This document shows positions 41,893-50,729 of a stretch of 64,000 bases of DNA, one piece after another. Source of the stretch: Hyphomicrobiales bacterium (GTDB lineage: Bacteria; Pseudomonadota; Alphaproteobacteria; Rhizobiales; Rhizobiaceae); contig UCKM01000001.1 of assembly GCA_900473175.1 (NCBI GenBank), positions 62,001 through 126,000 on the forward strand, in the 5' to 3' direction. The translations under genes and the position numbers were made by a program. The notes beneath the pieces are model-generated. The model was given only the letters and a program-made list of their open reading frames with translations, ran no database searches and had not been told where the DNA came from. Each line of letters opens with the position of its first letter. Position 1 is the stretch's first letter.

Positions 41893-44427
41893 GTGGTGCT
41901 TTCGTTCGTTGAGATCTTCCGGAACGAACTCGAAGTCATTAACTACCGCCGCCGAGCGATCCAGGATGGAATGGTTGCCGCTGCGCGGGCCAGCACGCGC
42001 CGCGGCAGGTTCGACGGCTTCCAGCCCGATGTCGAGCGCCCTGCGGCAAGGCTTGAAACGCCGTACTTCATCACCCCGCGCATAGACGCCACCCTTCAGA
42101 ATGATGAGGAGACGGGGCGCGAGACAATCCGCACGACGGAAGGCAGCAACCTTGTTGGGCTGGCTCTTTCGGGCGGCGGAATCCGCTCCGCATGTTTTTC
42201 GCTCGGGATATTGCAGGGGCTCGATTCCCTTGCGCATCGCAACGAACCGAATGTCCTTGATGCTTTCGACTATATTTCCGCCGTATCGGGCGGAGGCTAT
42301 ATCGCGACTTCGCTTGTCGCGGGTCTGATGCAGGAAAACGCCACGTTTCCCTTTGACAGCCGGCTCGACGAGCAAGAGGCGGCGGAGACGCAGCACTTGC
42401 GCGATTTTTCGAATTTCTTGGCCCCGAACGGAATCATCGACTATCTGGTGAGCTTTGCGATCGTGTTGCGCGGCCTTCTGGTCAATTTCGTGATCGTCCT
42501 GCCACTCCTGCTTGTGCTTGCGGCGGTAACGGTCGCGCTGTATCCGAACCCCGTTCTGCAGAAATCCTTTGCGCTGACCTTCTATTTCGCTGGCGCTGCC
42601 GTGGTCCTCATGGTCGCCAGCGCCATCTATATGTCGCTTTGGAGTAACTCGCTCAAATCCCGCGAAATCCTGCGGTTGTTTCTTGGCTTCATTCTGGCGC
42701 TTGTCGCGTTGGCAGCAGTCTTTCAACTGCAGCCCTATATCCTCGCCAATATGATCGTGGCTTCAAAAGCGTCGGTGGCTTCGAGCGAGCCTGGCACGCC
42801 TGCGCAGATCCTTCTGCAACTGTTGACTTCTGTCGTGCCGGTAATCAAACCTGCCAGCGGCGAGAACCTGTTCGATTTTCTCCCAAAACTCATAGCCTTC
42901 CTGACCCCGGCTGCTACCATCCTGATTGCGGTCTCCCAGAAACTTGCAAATGTGGCAAAGGCATCAGTCGGGGAAGCGACATGGACGGCCATGCTCAAGA
43001 AATATGCGAGCCGTCTTGCCCTCTATCTTGCAGCGGTGATTGTCCCCTTGCTGCTGTGGATCACCTATATTTACCTCTGCTACTGGGCAATCGAGAACTA
43101 TGCACATCATCGCTGTGCCGAGGGCACCACGCGCTGGCTGCGATTGATTACAATGTGCGATTGGAGTTCATTGGCAATCTATTTTATCGTCGCGGCGATC
43201 CTTGTTGTAGTGACGCTGTTCATCGGGCCCAACACCAATTCCCTGCACAAGCTCTATCGCGATCGCTTGAGCCGGGCTTTCCTGTTTGAACGCGCACATA
43301 TTGGCACGCGAAATGCCAAGAGCGACGTCGATACATGGACGTTCTCGTCGTTGAAGCCGCGTGATGAGGAGAGGGATACGTGGATTCCGTCGGCGGCCTA
43401 TGCGCCTTATCTGTTAACGAACACGGCGATCAATCTCGAAGGTTCGGAAGACTTGAACAAACGCGGTCGCAACGCGGATACCTTCATCTTCAGTCCCTTG
43501 CATGTCGGTAGTTGGTGGACGGGCTATGTGCCAACCAAGCATATCGAATCGGCCGTGCCAGATCTCAGCCTCGCGACCGCCATGGCGATCTCCGGGGCGG
43601 CCGCCTCGGCCAACATGGGCCGCAATACAATCAAGGTTCTTACTTTCAGCCTGTCGCTTCTCAATATCCGCCTGGGCTACTGGCTGGCAAATCCCGCACG
43701 ACTTGCGGCTTTCCGCGAGAGGTGGAAGCGTTGGCAAGCCAATCTTGGCAGCTGGTTTTTTGCCATGGAAACGTTCGGCCTGTTGAACGAGAAGCGGCTC
43801 AATGTCTATCTGACCGATGGCGGCCACATCGAGAACCTCGGCATATACGAGCTCTTGCGCCGCCGCTGCAAGGTGATCATAGCTGTAGATGCGGAAGCAG
43901 ACCCGAACATGACTTTCCCGGCACTCGTCAATCTCGAAGTGATGGCGCGCATCGACCTTGGTGTCCGGATCGAGCTGCCATGGCAGGCGCTTCAGAGCGG
44001 CGCAATCGGTGTTACATCCTCCGCACTTTATGGGCCGAAGGGATTGCCCGGCGCACGTGGGCCGCATGCGGCCATAGGCACGATCAAATATGATGACGCG
44101 AAGGGTATCTTAATCTACATCAAGTCGTCGCTGAGTGGCGACGAGAACGATTACATTCTTGATTATAAGCGTCACAACGCGGCGTTCCCGCATGAGACCA
44201 CGGTCGACCAGTTTTTCAGCGAAGAGCAATTCGAGGCCTACCGCGCCCTGGGCTTTCATGCCGCGCGTGGACTCTTTGCCGGCACCGACGACTTTGCCAA
44301 GCCGAGTTCGCCACCTCCCAATTGGGAAGCCGAGCTTTGCTCTGCTCTTGAATTGCTCAATATTCCACTTGCGATGCGGACCGCAATTTTGGCCCATTTA
44401 TCGGCTGCGACAAACCCCGATGAATGA
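41893..44427 (+). CDS. Membrane-embedded patatin-like phospholipase
   Basis: An 844-residue protein combining a patatin-like lipase with a membrane domain. GGGIR at 94-98 is the oxyanion element and SAVSGGGYIA around Ser132 the nucleophile elbow, whose leading Gly is replaced. DGGHIENLG near residue 641 gives the catalytic Asp. About six membrane segments lie between residues 185 and 430, splitting the two halves of the catalytic domain. Patatins release fatty acids from lipids. Start is GTG 41893 (or 41896) with GGAGGGG just upstream. It points toward the ThDP and dioxygenase genes, which suggests it supplies their substrate. Confidence 0.85.
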   Translation: MVLSFVEIFRNELEVINYRRRAIQDGMVAAARASTRRGRFDGFQPDVERPAARLETPYFITPRIDATLQNDEETGRETIRTTEGSNLVGLALSGGGIRSACFSLGILQGLDSLAHRNEPNVLDAFDYISAVSGGGYIATSLVAGLMQENATFPFDSRLDEQEAAETQHLRDFSNFLAPNGIIDYLVSFAIVLRGLLVNFVIVLPLLLVLAAVTVALYPNPVLQKSFALTFYFAGAAVVLMVASAIYMSLWSNSLKSREILRLFLGFILALVALAAVFQLQPYILANMIVASKASVASSEPGTPAQILLQLLTSVVPVIKPASGENLFDFLPKLIAFLTPAATILIAVSQKLANVAKASVGEATWTAMLKKYASRLALYLAAVIVPLLLWITYIYLCYWAIENYAHHRCAEGTTRWLRLITMCDWSSLAIYFIVAAILVVVTLFIGPNTNSLHKLYRDRLSRAFLFERAHIGTRNAKSDVDTWTFSSLKPRDEERDTWIPSAAYAPYLLTNTAINLEGSEDLNKRGRNADTFIFSPLHVGSWWTGYVPTKHIESAVPDLSLATAMAISGAAASANMGRNTIKVLTFSLSLLNIRLGYWLANPARLAAFRERWKRWQANLGSWFFAMETFGLLNEKRLNVYLTDGGHIENLGIYELLRRRCKVIIAVDAEADPNMTFPALVNLEVMARIDLGVRIELPWQALQSGAIGVTSSALYGPKGLPGARGPHAAIGTIKYDDAKGILIYIKSSLSGDENDYILDYKRHNAAFPHETTVDQFFSEEQFEAYRALGFHAARGLFAGTDDFAKPSSPPPNWEAELCSALELLNIPLAMRTAILAHLSAATNPDE

Positions 44428-44726: not shown

Positions 44727-46436
44727 ATGAGGATCTACGAGGCGATCGTTAAGGCATTGGAGGGAGTTGGCGTTGGCGCGGCATTTGGCGGGGCTGGCGA
44801 AAATGCGGCCGGCTTGATGATTGCGCTCAAGCACTCGAAGTCGATCAAACCGGTGATCACGCGCCACGAACAGGCTGCCGCCTTCATGGCCTGCGGTTAC
44901 GCCATGTTTTCAGGGCGTCTTGGCGTTTGCTTCGCCACTGCAGGCCCCGGTGCGTTCAATCTCTTTTCGGGCTTGGCCGTCGCCATGTCAGACTCCTATC
45001 CCGTACTGGCAATATCGGGGTTTTCATCGCTCGAATGGAGGGGAAAGGGGGCGTTGAACGAGACGTCCGGGCTAAGTCGCACACCCGATTCTCAAGTCAT
45101 GTTCTCTGCAACGACGAAGAAGTCATTTCTCCTTTATGACGCCGACAACGCTTGCGATGTTGTGGAAGAGGCCGTCAATCTTGCCTTTGAGGGCCGCCCT
45201 GGTCCCGTCCATATCCACGTTCCCTATAACCTCACGCATCAGGGGGTATCGGTCCGCAACTACCGGGACGTTGACCTGCGCATAAAGCCGGTGGTGCCAG
45301 ACCCTGCCAGAGTCGATGATATTGGCGACCTTCTGGTGGAGGCGCTCTCAAAGGGACAGAAAATCTTGGCCTTGGTCGGGTTTGGAGCTGTCCTAAGCAA
45401 TGCCGGTCCGGCGTTGAAACAATTGTTCGAGCGCTATCAGATACCCTTCGTCACAACGCTGGATGGCAAGGGCATCATCGAGGAGGGGCATCCGCTGGCA
45501 ATCGGCGTGTTCTGCGACAGTGGTCACAAGGCAGCGCGGGAGGCTTTCCAGGCGGCCGAGATCATCCTTGCGATCGGCAACTCGTTTGCCCAACATGCGA
45601 CGTTCAATTTTCGCGAGGACCTGCTGCGAAACAAGAAGCTCATTCACATCAATATCGATCGCGGCGAGATCGATAAGGTCTACAAGTCCGATGCCGCTAT
45701 CGTTGCGGACGCAACCCTCGCCGTAACGGCATTGCTCGACAGGATGTCCGCCGTCCTTGAGCCGCTGCCCAAACGGTCCTTCAAACGCTACGATTACGGA
45801 TCAGACAAGATCCACGATGTGATCGGCAAGCTCCACCCCGGCCAGATGGCGCAGGCCTTGTCGCGGCGTCTCCCGGACGATGCGATCGTATTGGCCGATG
45901 CTGGGGCTCATCTGACATGGCTCGGATATTACATGGAGCTCAAGGAGGGCCAGCATTTCAGGAAGCCCGGTGGCTTTGGTCCGATGGCCGGGAGCGTCAA
46001 CGGAGCGCTCGGCGTGAAATGTGCGCATCCGGAAAAGACTGTCATCGTGGGCTGCGGCGACGGGTGTTATCTTCTCTCGGGATTTGAGCTGTTGACAGCA
46101 GTCCAGTACGATATCCCGGTGATCTGGATCATCTTCAACGACAACCAGTTCAAACTCATCAAGATCTACCAACTCTCGACATACAAGGAGTCCGGCCTCG
46201 TCGAGTTTGAGAATCCGGATTACGTCGCCTATGCAAAGGCTTGCGGTGCCCATGGCTATCGTGTCGACACGCTGGAGGAATTCGAGGCGGCGTTCGATAA
46301 GGCCCTTAAGCTCAACGAGCCGGTGATCATCGACGCTCATATCTCTCGCATGGAGATACCGCACTATAGCTCATCACCAGAGGGAGTCTTGGCCGGTCTC
46401 GTCGAAAGGCTTGAGGCCAGGGTTCGTTCGAACTGA
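44727..46436 (+). CDS. Thiamine-diphosphate-dependent enzyme (acetolactate synthase-like)
   Basis: A 569-residue ThDP enzyme of the acetolactate synthase/benzoylformate decarboxylase superfamily. Glu48 in ITRHEQAAAF activates the cofactor, and the ThDP/Mg motif GCGDGCYLLSGFELL with NDNQF lies at about 442-475. The three domains (PYR, central, PP) are complete. The true reaction is not set by sequence: acetolactate synthase, 2-hydroxyacyl-CoA lyase or a decarboxylase are possible. ATG 44727 has GGAGAG 8 bases upstream. The dioxygenase-fusion gene follows 52 bases later, so co-transcription is likely. Confidence 0.85.
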   Translation: MRIYEAIVKALEGVGVGAAFGGAGENAAGLMIALKHSKSIKPVITRHEQAAAFMACGYAMFSGRLGVCFATAGPGAFNLFSGLAVAMSDSYPVLAISGFSSLEWRGKGALNETSGLSRTPDSQVMFSATTKKSFLLYDADNACDVVEEAVNLAFEGRPGPVHIHVPYNLTHQGVSVRNYRDVDLRIKPVVPDPARVDDIGDLLVEALSKGQKILALVGFGAVLSNAGPALKQLFERYQIPFVTTLDGKGIIEEGHPLAIGVFCDSGHKAAREAFQAAEIILAIGNSFAQHATFNFREDLLRNKKLIHINIDRGEIDKVYKSDAAIVADATLAVTALLDRMSAVLEPLPKRSFKRYDYGSDKIHDVIGKLHPGQMAQALSRRLPDDAIVLADAGAHLTWLGYYMELKEGQHFRKPGGFGPMAGSVNGALGVKCAHPEKTVIVGCGDGCYLLSGFELLTAVQYDIPVIWIIFNDNQFKLIKIYQLSTYKESGLVEFENPDYVAYAKACGAHGYRVDTLEEFEAAFDKALKLNEPVIIDAHISRMEIPHYSSSPEGVLAGLVERLEARVRSN

Positions 46437-46488: not shown

Positions 46489-49338
46489 ATGGCAATGTGG
46501 CGTGAAGAGTATCGAGGGGATGAACAAGCAGAACGCCTGGTGTTCGAACGCCTCGCGCAAGACATGATGGATGTCCAGCTCAAGACGAAGAAATACAGCA
46601 AGGCGCCCACCATACAGCGCGCGTTTCACAGCAAAGCGATATTTTCGGCAGTCGATGCCAGGCTCACATTCGTCGATGATCTGCCGGAAGAACTTCGTGC
46701 TGGCTTCGCGCAGCCCGGTAAATCCTATTCGACGATTGTCCGGTTCTCGAACGCCAATGGATACGGCCAACCGGACTACAAGCCGGACATGCGCGGGCTT
46801 GCGCTTCGCATTACAGTTTCCGACGACGAAAAGCACGATCTCCTCGCGACCAATTTCCCCGTGTCCCATGCGCGGAACGCGGAACAGTTCGTGGCATTCG
46901 CAAAAGCGACGGCGGGCGGCATCCTGAACAAGCTCGCGGGATTTGTGCGCCTGCTGTTCAAGTTCGGTCCCTCGGAAGTGATGCGGATGATTCGCAACGT
47001 GACGGCGGCCAGGCGACGCAAAGTGTCGAGTGCCGCCCTCGAAACCTACTGGAGCCGCGGGGCCATTCGCTGGGGCGACCAACTCGCCGTGCGTTATCTT
47101 TTACGGCCCGCACCCGGCGCGCCCTCGGCGCCGGAACCTTCGGACAAGGACCCGGGCTATCTGTCAAATGAGTTCGCGCGCCGCCTCGACCGCGGTGATG
47201 TGCATTACGAGCTGTGCATCCAACATTTTATCGACGCGAAATCCACGCCGATCGAAGATACGGCTGTCGAGTGGCTGGAAAGCGCTTCTCCTCCGGTCAA
47301 GGTTGCCGATCTCGTCATTTCGAAACCGAGTGCCGGCATTGCAGAGGCCTTTACAAATACCAGGATTGTCGACGAATTGGCGTTCAATCCCTGGAACACA
47401 ACCGACGAGTTCCGGCCACTCGGCAACCTCAACCGGGCACGCAAATCGGTCTATGATGCCGGTTCAGCCCATCGCCACATCTACCGATGGCGAACGGAGA
47501 CGCCGCTGCGAAACCGCGTGCTCGGCGGAATTGCGCGGCAGGGTTTCATGGTCGTCAACCGGTATATCGAATGGCATAAACTATCGCTGCGGTTGAGCCT
47601 GCTCAATCTCGACGCATACCGCTATGTGCTGCGCAAGAAAAACCTGATCGACACAGACGTATATGAAGCGCCCCCCACAGCGCGCCCGGTGCCGCCACCA
47701 GTCGTGGATGAGGGTGTTCGCCAGACACGGACCTACGACGGCACGTTCAACGACCTGTCGCAGCCCAAGATGGGGTCGATCGGTTCGGCCTTTGGCCGAA
47801 ACCTGAAGCCCGTCCTGGAGCCAGCCGCATTCGATTCACCCAATCCGATCACTGTTTCCCGCGAACTATTGCACCGCGACACGTTCATCCCGGCGCGATC
47901 TCTGAACATTCTGGCCGCAGCATGGATTCAGTTCCAGGTGCATGATTGGGTCAATCATGCCCGCAATCCGCTCGGCAAGGACGATATCATCGTTCCGCTG
48001 CCGAAGGGGATGACCTGGAAAAGCAGCGTGGGCGGGCCCACCGAAGACATCATGCGCATTGCCAGCAATTCGGGCCAGGAACAGGGTGAGGGAAGGCCTC
48101 CCATCTATTTTGGCAATGCTGCTTCGCAATGGTGGGACGGCTCCGAAGTCTACGGTCCCGACAGCAAATCGGCCAACCTCTTACGGGAGGGGCCGAAGCT
48201 GCGGCTCGTTGATGGGCATTTGCCGGTCGATCTCAAAGGCATGGAGGTCACCGGATTCAACGAAAGCTGGTGGCTCGGGTTGAGTTCGCTGCATACGCTG
48301 TTTGCGCGCGAGCACAATCTGCTGTGCGATGAGCTGCGATCACGCTATCGCAATTGGGATGACGAACGAGTCTATCAGACCGCGCGGCTGATCGTCTCGG
48401 CGCTGATTGCCAAAATCCACACGGTGGAATGGACACCTGCGATCCTTGCAACAAAGGCGATTGATGTTGGCCTTTCGAGCAACTGGAATGGTCCGCCCGC
48501 CAATGACTGGCTGACAAAACTGGGCATCTGGCTGCTCGACGCCCATGCGTTGACGGGTATTCCGAAGACCTTGCCCGATCACCACGGCGCACCCTATTGC
48601 CTGACCGAAGACTTCGTCACGGTCTATCGATTGCATCCGCTGCTTCCAGACGACTACTGTTTCTATGACCACGCCAATGGCAGCAAGATCGCCGAGAAGG
48701 GCTTTCTCGATATCCAGGCTGCCTCCGCAGACGACGCCATGCGCGCGTTCGGCCTGCGCAACACGCTCTATTCGTTCGGCATTGCGCATCCCGGCGCGAT
48801 CACGCTCCATAATTATCCGAAGTCATTGCTTGCGCTCGAACGGGATAATGAGATCATCGATCTTTCGGTTGTCGATATCGTTCGAACGCGGCGCCGGGGT
48901 GTACCGCGCTACAATGATTTCCGCACCGGCCTGCACCGGCCGAGGATCAAGAGCTGGGAGGAACTGACAACAAACCCCGAGGACGTCAAACTACTGAAGG
49001 AAATCTACGGCAGCATTGACCGCATCGACACGGTGGTGGGGCTGTTTGCCGAGCCAGCACCGGCGGGATTTGGTTTCAGCGATACGGCATTCCGTATCTT
49101 CATTTTGATGGCGTCCCGGCGGCTTCAGAGCGATCGGTTCCTCACGGTAGACTTCCGGCCGGAAGTCTATTCGCCGTTTGGTATCGACTGGATCGCCAAC
49201 AATAATATGACGAGCATCATCCTGCGCCATTGTCCGGAACTGGCCTCGGTTCTGCCGCGTACCGGCAGTGCATTTGCTCCGTGGCGTCCCATTTTACCGA
49301 GCAGTTCGATGCCACCCATGTCTGGAAGTACGCCATGA
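46489..49338 (+). CDS. Catalase-related domain fused to cyclooxygenase-like heme dioxygenase
   Basis: About 949 residues joining two heme domains. The first (about 35-340) resembles minimal catalase-related proteins: His47 in RAFHSKA, RFSNANGYG, DMRGLALRI, and a likely heme-ligating Tyr322 in ARKSVYDAGSAHR. The second (about 410-930) belongs to the animal-heme-peroxidase/cyclooxygenase/linoleate-dioxygenase family: distal His485 in FQVHDWVNHA, proximal His644 in KIHTVEW, and Tyr713 in VYRLHPLLPD, matching the radical Tyr of cyclooxygenases. LHTLFAREHNLLCDEL is also typical. Predicted role: oxygenate a fatty acid, then rearrange or cleave the hydroperoxide. ATG 46489 has GGGGAA 8 bases upstream; no signal peptide. 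Confidence 0.88.
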   Translation: MAMWREEYRGDEQAERLVFERLAQDMMDVQLKTKKYSKAPTIQRAFHSKAIFSAVDARLTFVDDLPEELRAGFAQPGKSYSTIVRFSNANGYGQPDYKPDMRGLALRITVSDDEKHDLLATNFPVSHARNAEQFVAFAKATAGGILNKLAGFVRLLFKFGPSEVMRMIRNVTAARRRKVSSAALETYWSRGAIRWGDQLAVRYLLRPAPGAPSAPEPSDKDPGYLSNEFARRLDRGDVHYELCIQHFIDAKSTPIEDTAVEWLESASPPVKVADLVISKPSAGIAEAFTNTRIVDELAFNPWNTTDEFRPLGNLNRARKSVYDAGSAHRHIYRWRTETPLRNRVLGGIARQGFMVVNRYIEWHKLSLRLSLLNLDAYRYVLRKKNLIDTDVYEAPPTARPVPPPVVDEGVRQTRTYDGTFNDLSQPKMGSIGSAFGRNLKPVLEPAAFDSPNPITVSRELLHRDTFIPARSLNILAAAWIQFQVHDWVNHARNPLGKDDIIVPLPKGMTWKSSVGGPTEDIMRIASNSGQEQGEGRPPIYFGNAASQWWDGSEVYGPDSKSANLLREGPKLRLVDGHLPVDLKGMEVTGFNESWWLGLSSLHTLFAREHNLLCDELRSRYRNWDDERVYQTARLIVSALIAKIHTVEWTPAILATKAIDVGLSSNWNGPPANDWLTKLGIWLLDAHALTGIPKTLPDHHGAPYCLTEDFVTVYRLHPLLPDDYCFYDHANGSKIAEKGFLDIQAASADDAMRAFGLRNTLYSFGIAHPGAITLHNYPKSLLALERDNEIIDLSVVDIVRTRRRGVPRYNDFRTGLHRPRIKSWEELTTNPEDVKLLKEIYGSIDRIDTVVGLFAEPAPAGFGFSDTAFRIFILMASRRLQSDRFLTVDFRPEVYSPFGIDWIANNNMTSIILRHCPELASVLPRTGSAFAPWRPILPSSSMPPMSGSTP

Positions 49339-50729
49339 CAGAAGCGAGGGAAACCAAGGCTGCGCCGTCCACGGGTCATCGCGGGCTGGATGCCCTTCTG
49401 AAGCGACCGTTGATCGAGTCGATATGGCGGCGACGAACACACCGTGTCAGCCAGGGAAGTTCGGTTCTTGCCGGTACGATGAGCTATGAATCGGCCAAGC
49501 CGCGCGAACCGCTGTCGGAGCTTGAGGAAGCGATCCTGATAGCGATGACGGGCTGCACCGGTCTGACGATGCCTGACAGACCTTTCGAGGATCCGAAAAC
49601 GCACAAACCGATAATGGCGAAGCCGAACCTCAATATGGCGGGGCGCACTGCCGGCAGCCCGGACAATGCGCAAGGCACGCATTTCTTCCTTATCAATGAC
49701 ACAGGCACCTATTTCCTGCGCAAGTTATCCCCGCCGGCGGAGGGCGAGGCCGCCTTTACACGCGAACGGTTGTTGCAAAGGGCGAGTGAGGCGAGGGTAA
49801 AAATACTTGATCATCGGCTCGATGTACCTGGCGGAAAGCGTGACTTTCCCGCCTATCTCGACTCCAACCGCTTTCTGTCGAACCTGCCAGGCACTACGAT
49901 TCTCCTACCCGTGGTCGACCTGTCCCGGCAATATATCAATGGCATGATGTATGTGCTGACACAGCCGGACGACGCGCGGCCGGCAATCGTGGATGATCGC
50001 AATTTCTATCGCTCGGCAGGCGTGAAACGCTGGGTCAAGAAGGGCTTTCTCAACAAGGACCTGAAAGTGCCTCTCGGCGCTATCGGATCATTGCGGACGC
50101 AGATTGAAGCCGACCTCCTGCTGCAGAACATGTTCCTCACTGCTGATGCCATGGGGCTGGGCGCATGGATACACGCGTCCATCAGCCCGCCAGTTCTCGT
50201 CGGGGATCCGAAGTTCACCAAGGATTATGGTCCAATGCTGGGTTTCGACGTCGAGACGCCGAAATGGCGCATCATGGATCTTCTGCGCTGGCATGTACCG
50301 TTGCCGCGCTATTCAAATCTGCGAAGCAACCCGATTGGCCTGAGGTACAAGGGCGAACACCTCATCAAAGGCATGTCCCCCCCTTACTACGACACGATGG
50401 CGGATGCGGTGCAGGCCGTGGTCAAGGACAAGTTTGGCGAGAAGGGCTTCTATACGGACAAGGAACTTTTCGCCCGGATTTACCAAGGCGATTATGGCGA
50501 TCGCTATCTGAAGGAAGCTGCCGTCTATAGTTCCGACGTGATCGAATGCGTGCAGGACATCTGCACCTACATCTACGATACCCACGGCCGCTTCCCGGCC
50601 CATTGCGACGCAATTCATGTTCCGGGCGTGTGGCTGCAAGTGCACCATGTCGACATCGACTATTATGAACGCTTCTTCCGCAACGGACTGACCGAGGCGC
50701 ACTATAATCATGAACGGGACTGGCAGTAG
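49335..50729 (+). CDS. Nitroreductase-like protein of unknown function
   Basis: A 464-residue protein. Two stretches recall the nitroreductase fold: LSELEEAILIAMTGCTGLT near the N-terminus and LLQNMFLTADAMGLGAWIH in the middle, where FMN-binding enzymes have similar helices. The rest is unusual, with a His-rich end (HCDAIHVPGVWLQVHHVDID). Whether it binds flavin is uncertain. The ATG at 49335 overlaps the stop of the dioxygenase-fusion gene by 4 bases, so it is translationally coupled to it and probably acts on its product or its redox partner. It has no signal peptide. Confidence 0.65.
   Translation: MTEARETKAAPSTGHRGLDALLKRPLIESIWRRRTHRVSQGSSVLAGTMSYESAKPREPLSELEEAILIAMTGCTGLTMPDRPFEDPKTHKPIMAKPNLNMAGRTAGSPDNAQGTHFFLINDTGTYFLRKLSPPAEGEAAFTRERLLQRASEARVKILDHRLDVPGGKRDFPAYLDSNRFLSNLPGTTILLPVVDLSRQYINGMMYVLTQPDDARPAIVDDRNFYRSAGVKRWVKKGFLNKDLKVPLGAIGSLRTQIEADLLLQNMFLTADAMGLGAWIHASISPPVLVGDPKFTKDYGPMLGFDVETPKWRIMDLLRWHVPLPRYSNLRSNPIGLRYKGEHLIKGMSPPYYDTMADAVQAVVKDKFGEKGFYTDKELFARIYQGDYGDRYLKEAAVYSSDVIECVQDICTYIYDTHGRFPAHCDAIHVPGVWLQVHHVDIDYYERFFRNGLTEAHYNHERDWQ

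Follow-up and report, generated by a model that had tools for sequence, protein, structure and literature searches.

The fusion gene and its domains

We have analysed a gene in a 64,000-nucleotide stretch of DNA (the window) from contig UCKM01000001.1 of a Hyphomicrobiales bacterium. The source organism is root-associated. The gene contains a single open reading frame (ORF) of 949 amino acids (aa), in which an N-terminal catalase-related domain is joined to a C-terminal domain related to the fatty-acid alpha-dioxygenases (alpha-DOX). Its features in window coordinates are as follows.

46489..49338, + strand: catalase-related/alpha-dioxygenase fusion, 949 aa, ATG at 46489 and stop codon ending at 49338 (Pfam, PDB relatives, Foldseek)
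46546..47493, + strand: N-terminal catalase-related domain, residues 20-335 (Pfam Catalase, best PDB relative 3e4w, residue conservation)
46627-46629 and 47452-47454, + strand: predicted distal H47 and proximal Y322 of the catalase-related domain, which also contains R318
47542..49302, + strand: C-terminal alpha-dioxygenase domain, residues 352-938 (Pfam, PDB relatives, Foldseek, alignment with rice, tree)
47941-47943 and 48418-48420, + strand: predicted distal H485 and carboxylate anchor H644 of the alpha-DOX domain, which also contains T649
48625-48627, 48634-48636 and 49120-49122, + strand: predicted radical tyrosine Y713, proximal H716 and carboxylate anchor R878 of the alpha-DOX domain

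The ORF is a real gene and is correctly located. Its nearest named relatives, from P. pellucidum and P. sophorae, are 88% and 85% identical, and on this basis the source genome belongs to Phyllobacterium. Searching one genome collection gave 198 confirmed stretches, of which 80 were kept for all locus counts; residue counts refer to 81 sequences, i.e. the window plus these 80. All 80 are full-length fusions of 915-976 aa, the length depending on the start codon chosen. Given these and the full-length relative at 88% identity, an artefact of chance or frameshift is very unlikely. Alignment A1 contains 47 of the 81 fusion sequences, A2 contains 35 of 60 (the window and the 59 matching loci), and A3 and A4 contain 21 of 81.

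Two Pfam families are recognized, An_peroxidase at residues 414-921 (E 4.3e-92) and Catalase at residues 34-141 (E 6.2e-7); the latter match is weak, yet above the cut-off (29.3 bits against 25). No NCBIfam model matched the protein at 1e-3. Both domains are conserved, with mean column identities of 72% and 66% in 21 sequences. An AlphaFold2 model of the fusion has a mean predicted local distance difference test (pLDDT) score of 75.

The C-terminal half is an alpha-dioxygenase domain

Over residues 348-937 the solved structures that come closest are those of the plant alpha-DOX enzymes of rice and Arabidopsis, with E values of 1.4e-99 and 2.1e-99. Cyclooxygenase-1 (COX-1) matches this half at about 1e-10, some 90 orders of magnitude behind. 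The top Foldseek match is again Arabidopsis alpha-DOX (4hhs; E 1e-29, template modelling (TM) score 0.69 of target). On alignment, window H485, H644, W648, T649, Y713 and H716 correspond to rice H157, H311, W315, T316, Y379 and H382, and window F868, F871, I872, A875 and R878 to rice F549, F552, I553, A556 and R559. Eleven of 13 mapped substrate-channel and heme residues are kept, the exceptions being rice M325 (replaced by I) and A331 (replaced by S). H485, H644 and Y713 are each present in 81 of 81 sequences, as is the combination of radical tyrosine and proximal histidine (Y713 and H716).

The accessible text of PMC8720084 gives roles for H311, H382, R559 and T316 of rice alpha-DOX; H311 binds the substrate carboxylate and H382 is the proximal heme histidine. 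Because H644 and H716 align with these two, H644 is predicted to be the substrate carboxylate anchor and H716 the proximal heme ligand. The first-pass annotation had listed H644 among the key residues of the second heme domain; this correspondence corrects its role.

Identity with the window domain is 45.5% for the alpha-DOX of Calothrix sp. PCC 6303 (L136), compared with 34-35% for plant alpha-DOX. The Calothrix protein has histidines at 131 and 361, the numbers given for CalDOX in the accessible text of PMC8720084, and is presumably CalDOX itself. In 25 rows lying outside the clade of fused proteins, the position of the distal heme histidine is occupied by H in 14, R in 7 and K in 4. The 11 with Arg or Lys (L118, L120, L125-L131, L133 and L134) are unfused actinobacterial relatives; L122 and L124, in which the domain is paired with a catalase-related one, retain the histidine. 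According to the same accessible text the distal heme histidine of alpha-DOX is only partially conserved.

The first-pass annotation had named the gene a fusion of a catalase-related domain with a COX-like enzyme of the linoleate 10S-dioxygenase (10S-DOX) type. That a catalase-related domain is joined to an oxygenase acting on fatty acids, and that this oxygenase belongs to the COX/peroxidase superfamily, stands; the 10S-DOX-like type gives way to alpha-DOX. Were the protein a linoleate 10S-DOX of COX-like type joined to its own 10S-hydroperoxide lyase, it would involve the same superfamilies and the same logic of pairing as a gene pair in Nostoc (PMC13049297, accessible text). Against this, the carboxylate-binding residues of alpha-DOX are invariant in the fused family, and the E values strongly favour alpha-DOX over COX. 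The best PDB relatives, Foldseek, the Calothrix relative and the residue match with rice all indicate alpha-DOX, so the 10S-DOX reading was set aside as highly improbable, the Nostoc 10S-DOX sequence lying outside the comparison. Within that same comparison, and as judged from sequence, the second domain is an alpha-DOX rather than a 10S-DOX/COX type. The expected product of an alpha-DOX domain is a 2-hydroperoxide, and not a 10-hydroperoxide.

The N-terminal half is a catalase-related domain

Foldseek matches the N-terminal half to the catalase-related protein 3e4w (E 6e-14, TM score 0.80 of target, 25% identity). Searching the PDB with a profile of 21 fused catalase-related domains gave 3e4w as the sole match at 1e-8. 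A catalase-like fold for the first domain had been anticipated in the first-pass annotation and is borne out by the structure prediction, in which both folds of the protein are recovered. R318 and Y322 are present in 81 of 81 sequences and H47 in 78; these occupy what we take to be the positions of the catalase distal histidine and the RxxxY proximal-ligand motif. All of the residues singled out in that annotation (H47, Y322, H485, H644 and Y713) are therefore strongly conserved.

Distribution of the fusion

The 80 fusions come from Rhizobiales, Sphingomonas, Rhodobacterales, one Nitrococcus, one Myxococcales metagenome-assembled genome and many Actinobacteria. The arrangement had seemed an oddity of one alphaproteobacterium. 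With 198 confirmed relatives, 80 of them kept, all full-length and spread over Proteobacteria, Actinobacteria and the Myxococcales genome, this no longer holds; yet the fusion is sparse. It is patchy even within the genus of the source, where 3 of 20 genomes have it, the source included. In 385 sampled genomes of the source's class an alpha-DOX profile made two matches, i.e. the window's own fusion and the unfused L092. The class of Streptosporangium nondiastaticum (genome G082, with fusion L036) is represented by 296 genomes, of which 19 have alpha-DOX at a total of 24 places: four fusions, one fusion in reverse order and 19 unfused genes. One of these fusions is that of G082, which was chosen for having it.

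Matches were found in 19 records of a plasmid collection, 16 of them covering at least 80% of the query. These 16 comprise 14 from Rhizobium (for the most part from legumes, bean among them), one from Phyllobacterium and one chromosome-size record from Nonomuraea. The existing annotation of 14 of the 19 says only 'peroxidase family protein'; the other five have no feature or no annotation. A repC match (G000:C27:53246-53764) lies on the same contig about 8 kb to the left of the window, and for this reason the region is probably located on a repABC-type replicon. Phyllobacterium sp. A18/5-2 carries the same neighbourhood on a 520-kb plasmid.

The two domains are paired in several lineages

Phylogeny of both halves, a check raised by the first-pass annotation, places the fused domains in one clade each. 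All 22 fused domains in the alpha-DOX tree form a single clade, with a Shimodaira-Hasegawa-like approximate likelihood ratio test (SH-aLRT) value of 100, as do the 21 in the catalase tree (92). These are quick IQ-TREE trees with SH-aLRT as the sole measure of support. Midpoint rooting was used to draw the catalase tree, for which the programme gave a long-branch warning; the alpha-DOX alignment and tree were made without the truncated alpha-DOX of L135.

The same partners occur together elsewhere. L124 is a fusion of reverse order with alpha-DOX first, and in L122 the two are adjacent genes; each of the two trees makes L122 and L124 sisters (100 and 99), outside the fused clade. In L135 the catalase-related and alpha-DOX genes are adjacent, and in L125 they are 2.7 kb apart; the catalase-related proteins of these two loci are sisters (100) on another branch of the catalase tree. 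The pair of catalase-related domain and alpha-DOX is thus found at least twice more beyond the fused clade.

A catalase-related profile made 12 matches in the 19 alpha-DOX genomes mentioned above. Four are the fused domain. Of the remaining eight, five lie beside alpha-DOX or the gene cassette described below (G650:C6, G620, G504, G629 and G082:C111:138366), and three lie elsewhere. Such neighbours should rarely arise by chance in genomes of 1.9-9.7 Mb.

Neighbouring genes

Three further genes of the window are relevant.

44727..46436, + strand: thiamine diphosphate (ThDP)-dependent enzyme, 569 aa from its ATG (the ORF list starts at TTG 44685), with solved relatives BbmA and CsmA; cassette member
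49335..50729, + strand: 464-aa protein whose ATG overlaps the stop codon of the fusion, no family above cut-off, weakly nitroreductase-like; cassette member
41893..44427, + strand: patatin-like phospholipase, 844 aa (Pfam), upstream of the cassette

The ThDP gene is present in 37 of the 80 loci and the 464-aa gene in 59. Both are found in 35, to which can be added L031, whose contig ends within the 464-aa gene; in 23 the 464-aa gene occurs with no ThDP gene, and L071 has the ThDP gene alone. These counts are lower bounds, as flanks extend to 7 kb at most and many loci stop at contig ends. Apart from loci with one partner or none, the order is ThDP-fusion-464 in 21 and fusion-464-ThDP in 11, with every other order found three times or fewer. 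For 29 of the 80 the genome was searched whole, i.e. 19 of the 20 loci with neither neighbour, L071 and nine having only the 464-aa gene. That gene was found in all nine of the latter genomes. A match to the ThDP enzyme at 1e-60 was found in two of the 29, in the genome of L071 and, more weakly (32%), in that of L089.

The best solved relatives of the ThDP enzyme are BbmA (E 6.7e-80) and CsmA (E 8.4e-68), followed by acetolactate synthases (E 9.2e-54). In the accessible text of PMC12395478, CsmA is a homolog of CybE and a second homolog is printed as BpmA; the product that CybE forms from two 2-oxo acids is an acyloin-type acid. By homology the window enzyme is nearest to these CybE-type acyloin synthases.

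The 464-aa protein is at least 61% identical to that of the window in 34 other aligned members. It is perhaps nitroreductase-like. The window protein scores 12.3 bits against Pfam PF00881 (FMN nitroreductase), below the cut-off of 23.5, and 27 of 35 members match this family at E up to 0.5, the best being 0.0022. Alignment of the 464-aa family with nitroreductase by hhalign gives a probability of 24 (E 8e-4, 49 columns). The structural model is poor (pLDDT 55) and its first five Foldseek matches are nitroreductases at E 0.13 or worse. A PDB profile search with the protein gave two matches (E 0.24 and 0.49), both to GTP-binding proteins.

The patatin-like phospholipase is a possible supplier of fatty acid. 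Its gene is upstream of the cassette in seven of 80 loci (Phyllobacterium and Rhizobium), with a weaker match elsewhere in L019; it was accordingly rejected as a general member of the operon. On the Calothrix plasmid pCAL6303.01 a patatin-like phospholipase gene (L136 12165-13743) is found some 4 kb from alpha-DOX. In Phyllobacterium sp. A18/5-2 the ThDP and 464-aa genes (L138 6192-7900 and 11147-12263) are each annotated in two pieces, and the fusion is whole. L137 (a Rhizobium plasmid) and L086 (Mesorhizobium) have the fusion, a cytochrome c, a short hypothetical gene and the 464-aa gene, with no ThDP gene; the cytochrome c of L137 is RoxA-like, and that of L086 lies between the fusion and the 464-aa gene.

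A proposed two-step reaction

On balance we think it probable that the fusion is a two-heme enzyme for two consecutive steps of fatty-acid alpha-oxidation, whichever product the second step gives. We infer the substrate, the order of the steps and the product, together with the roles of the ThDP enzyme and the 464-aa protein. By homology with alpha-DOX and its residues, H644 and R878 would hold the fatty acid while a heme-generated radical on Y713 abstracts a hydrogen at its C2, and O2 would then add there to give the 2-hydroperoxy acid. The N-terminal catalase-related domain would consume this 2-hydroperoxide before it could decarboxylate spontaneously. The second step would most likely end as a 2-oxo acid (by dehydration) or a 2-hydroxy acid (by reduction), a pair of products that we put forward tentatively. 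A 2-oxo acid could be the donor for the CybE-like ThDP enzyme, leading to formation of a C-C bond.

Some unfused alpha-DOX genes lie in other clusters. In L140 (Streptomyces sp. NBC_00069), L117, L119 and L121 alpha-DOX is accompanied by genes for a ThDP decarboxylase-like protein, an oxidase linked to flavin adenine dinucleotide (FAD), a cytochrome P450 and an alpha/beta hydrolase, and in L139 and L131 another FAD-binding oxidase adjoins it. The cluster of L140 sits on a 39-kb Streptomyces plasmid. Across the 80 fused loci neither kind of FAD oxidase gave a match at E 1e-10. It is reasonable to suppose that the catalase-related domain replaces the FAD oxidase and delivers the 2-oxo acid, or that it makes the 2-hydroxy acid.

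These clusters bear on a variant within the two-step reading, in which the catalase-related half would be a hydroperoxide lyase that converts the 2-hydroperoxide into the one-carbon-shorter aldehyde and CO2. The fusion would then be a self-contained fatty-aldehyde synthase. Corals and Nostoc have hydroperoxide lyases of the catalase-related type (PMC5617202 and PMC13049297, accessible texts), and the products of alpha-DOX end as one-carbon-shorter aldehydes (PMC9305512, accessible text). An acyloin-type ThDP enzyme could accept an aldehyde, and may join it to a 2-oxo acid. However, the presence of an FAD-linked oxidase together with a ThDP decarboxylase-like gene in the four clusters of unfused alpha-DOX suggests a 2-hydroxy or 2-oxo route, and it is established that a 2-hydroperoxide decays to the aldehyde unaided, so that a dedicated domain gains less. 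We regard the lyase as unlikely.

A more specific and quite unlikely form of the two-step proposal takes the catalase-related half as a 2-hydroperoxy-acid dehydratase. The one protein would then need neither CoA nor NAD(P)H to turn free fatty acid and O2 directly into a long-chain 2-oxo acid, which the ThDP enzyme would condense, with decarboxylation, into long-chain acyloins or alpha-hydroxy-beta-keto acids; the 464-aa protein, perhaps flavin-dependent, would finish the product.

Several observations weigh against a two-step enzyme. We know of no activity for any member of the fused family. The structural model is weak at the heme pocket of alpha-DOX, where segments 465-490, 697-706, 716-719 and 876-889 fall below a pLDDT of 50. 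In three of the 81 sequences (L081, L087 and L089) the distal H47 is replaced by Gln. These three are Actinoplanes and Paractinoplanes fusions, at whose loci both the ThDP and 464-aa neighbours are missing. The site of the distal asparagine also varies, being N in 54, S in 26 and G in one of 81; in the window it is N122, placed by eye, and we take it to correspond to catalase N148 and cAOS N137. Twenty of the 80 fused loci have neither neighbour, by which a universal cassette is rejected, and the 464-aa gene was missing genome-wide in 20 of 20 genomes that lack it at the locus. No catalase-related match was found in the examined stretch of 17 of 21 unfused alpha-DOX loci, some of these stretches being short, so alpha-DOX in general needs no catalase-related partner. 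Finally, L153 has a related catalase-like domain in one frame with LodA_N and LodA_C, of the lysine oxidase type. L153 lies at G082:C111, near the fusion cassette of L036.

The Gln at position 47 might indicate that catalysis has been lost in one domain or in both, or that they have a purely structural role. With the main heme and catalytic residues in 78-81 of 81 sequences and both domains conserved, this is very improbable. The LodA-type partner in L153 is presumably a producer of H2O2, and that fusion fits plain handling of peroxide. By extension, the catalase-related half of the window protein might only manage peroxide, setting the level that activates the alpha-DOX heme or removing damaging H2O2, with no part in forming the product. 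Its closest solved relative, 3e4w, is likewise a small catalase-related protein, presumably a peroxidase. However, separate lineages pair the two domains, and a general scavenger would hardly seem to require this, and we consider this alternative unlikely.

Relation to known systems

Rice and Arabidopsis alpha-DOX (4kvj and 4hhr) and cyanobacterial CalDOX share with the window enzyme the fold, the radical tyrosine, two heme histidines, the carboxylate-binding His and Arg, and the Thr. They are single proteins, whereas the window enzyme has a catalase-related half in front. Similarly, the N-terminal domain shares its fold with 3e4w, a 33-kDa catalase-related protein from Mycobacterium avium subsp. 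paratuberculosis that stands alone.

Single chains containing an oxygenase and a hydroperoxide-using heme domain are known as catalase-related/lipoxygenase and DOX-P450 fusions. In the coral AOS- and HPL-lipoxygenases and the cyanobacterial catalase-LOX fusions a hydroperoxide-using catalase-related domain is joined to the oxygenase that feeds it, and is N-terminal in the coral proteins as it is in the window (PMC5617202 and PMC11719350, accessible texts). Their partner is a lipoxygenase and not a heme alpha-dioxygenase, so a different carbon is oxygenated. The 10S-DOX and catalase-related lyase of Nostoc punctiforme are also a pair of heme dioxygenase and catalase-related protein, with 10S- rather than alpha-oxygenation (PMC13049297, accessible text). 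The main text of PMC8720084 refers to putative alpha-DOX in Actinobacteria and Proteobacteria, and as accessible contains neither 'catalase' nor 'fused'. A literature search for which most subscription journals were outside the scope found no published description of an alpha-DOX-catalase fusion. The kind of arrangement is already known; its combination with alpha-DOX was found to be undescribed.

If the two-step reading is true, a tethered second step has evolved in alpha-oxidation as well, and more than once. The dehydratase route, if true, would lead to lipids of a new class, perhaps with a signalling role, and would be common to rhizobial plasmids and actinomycetes. The cassette suggests a lipid pathway, so far uncharacterised, that includes a ThDP enzyme of the C-C bond-forming type, in rhizobial plasmids and in actinomycetes.

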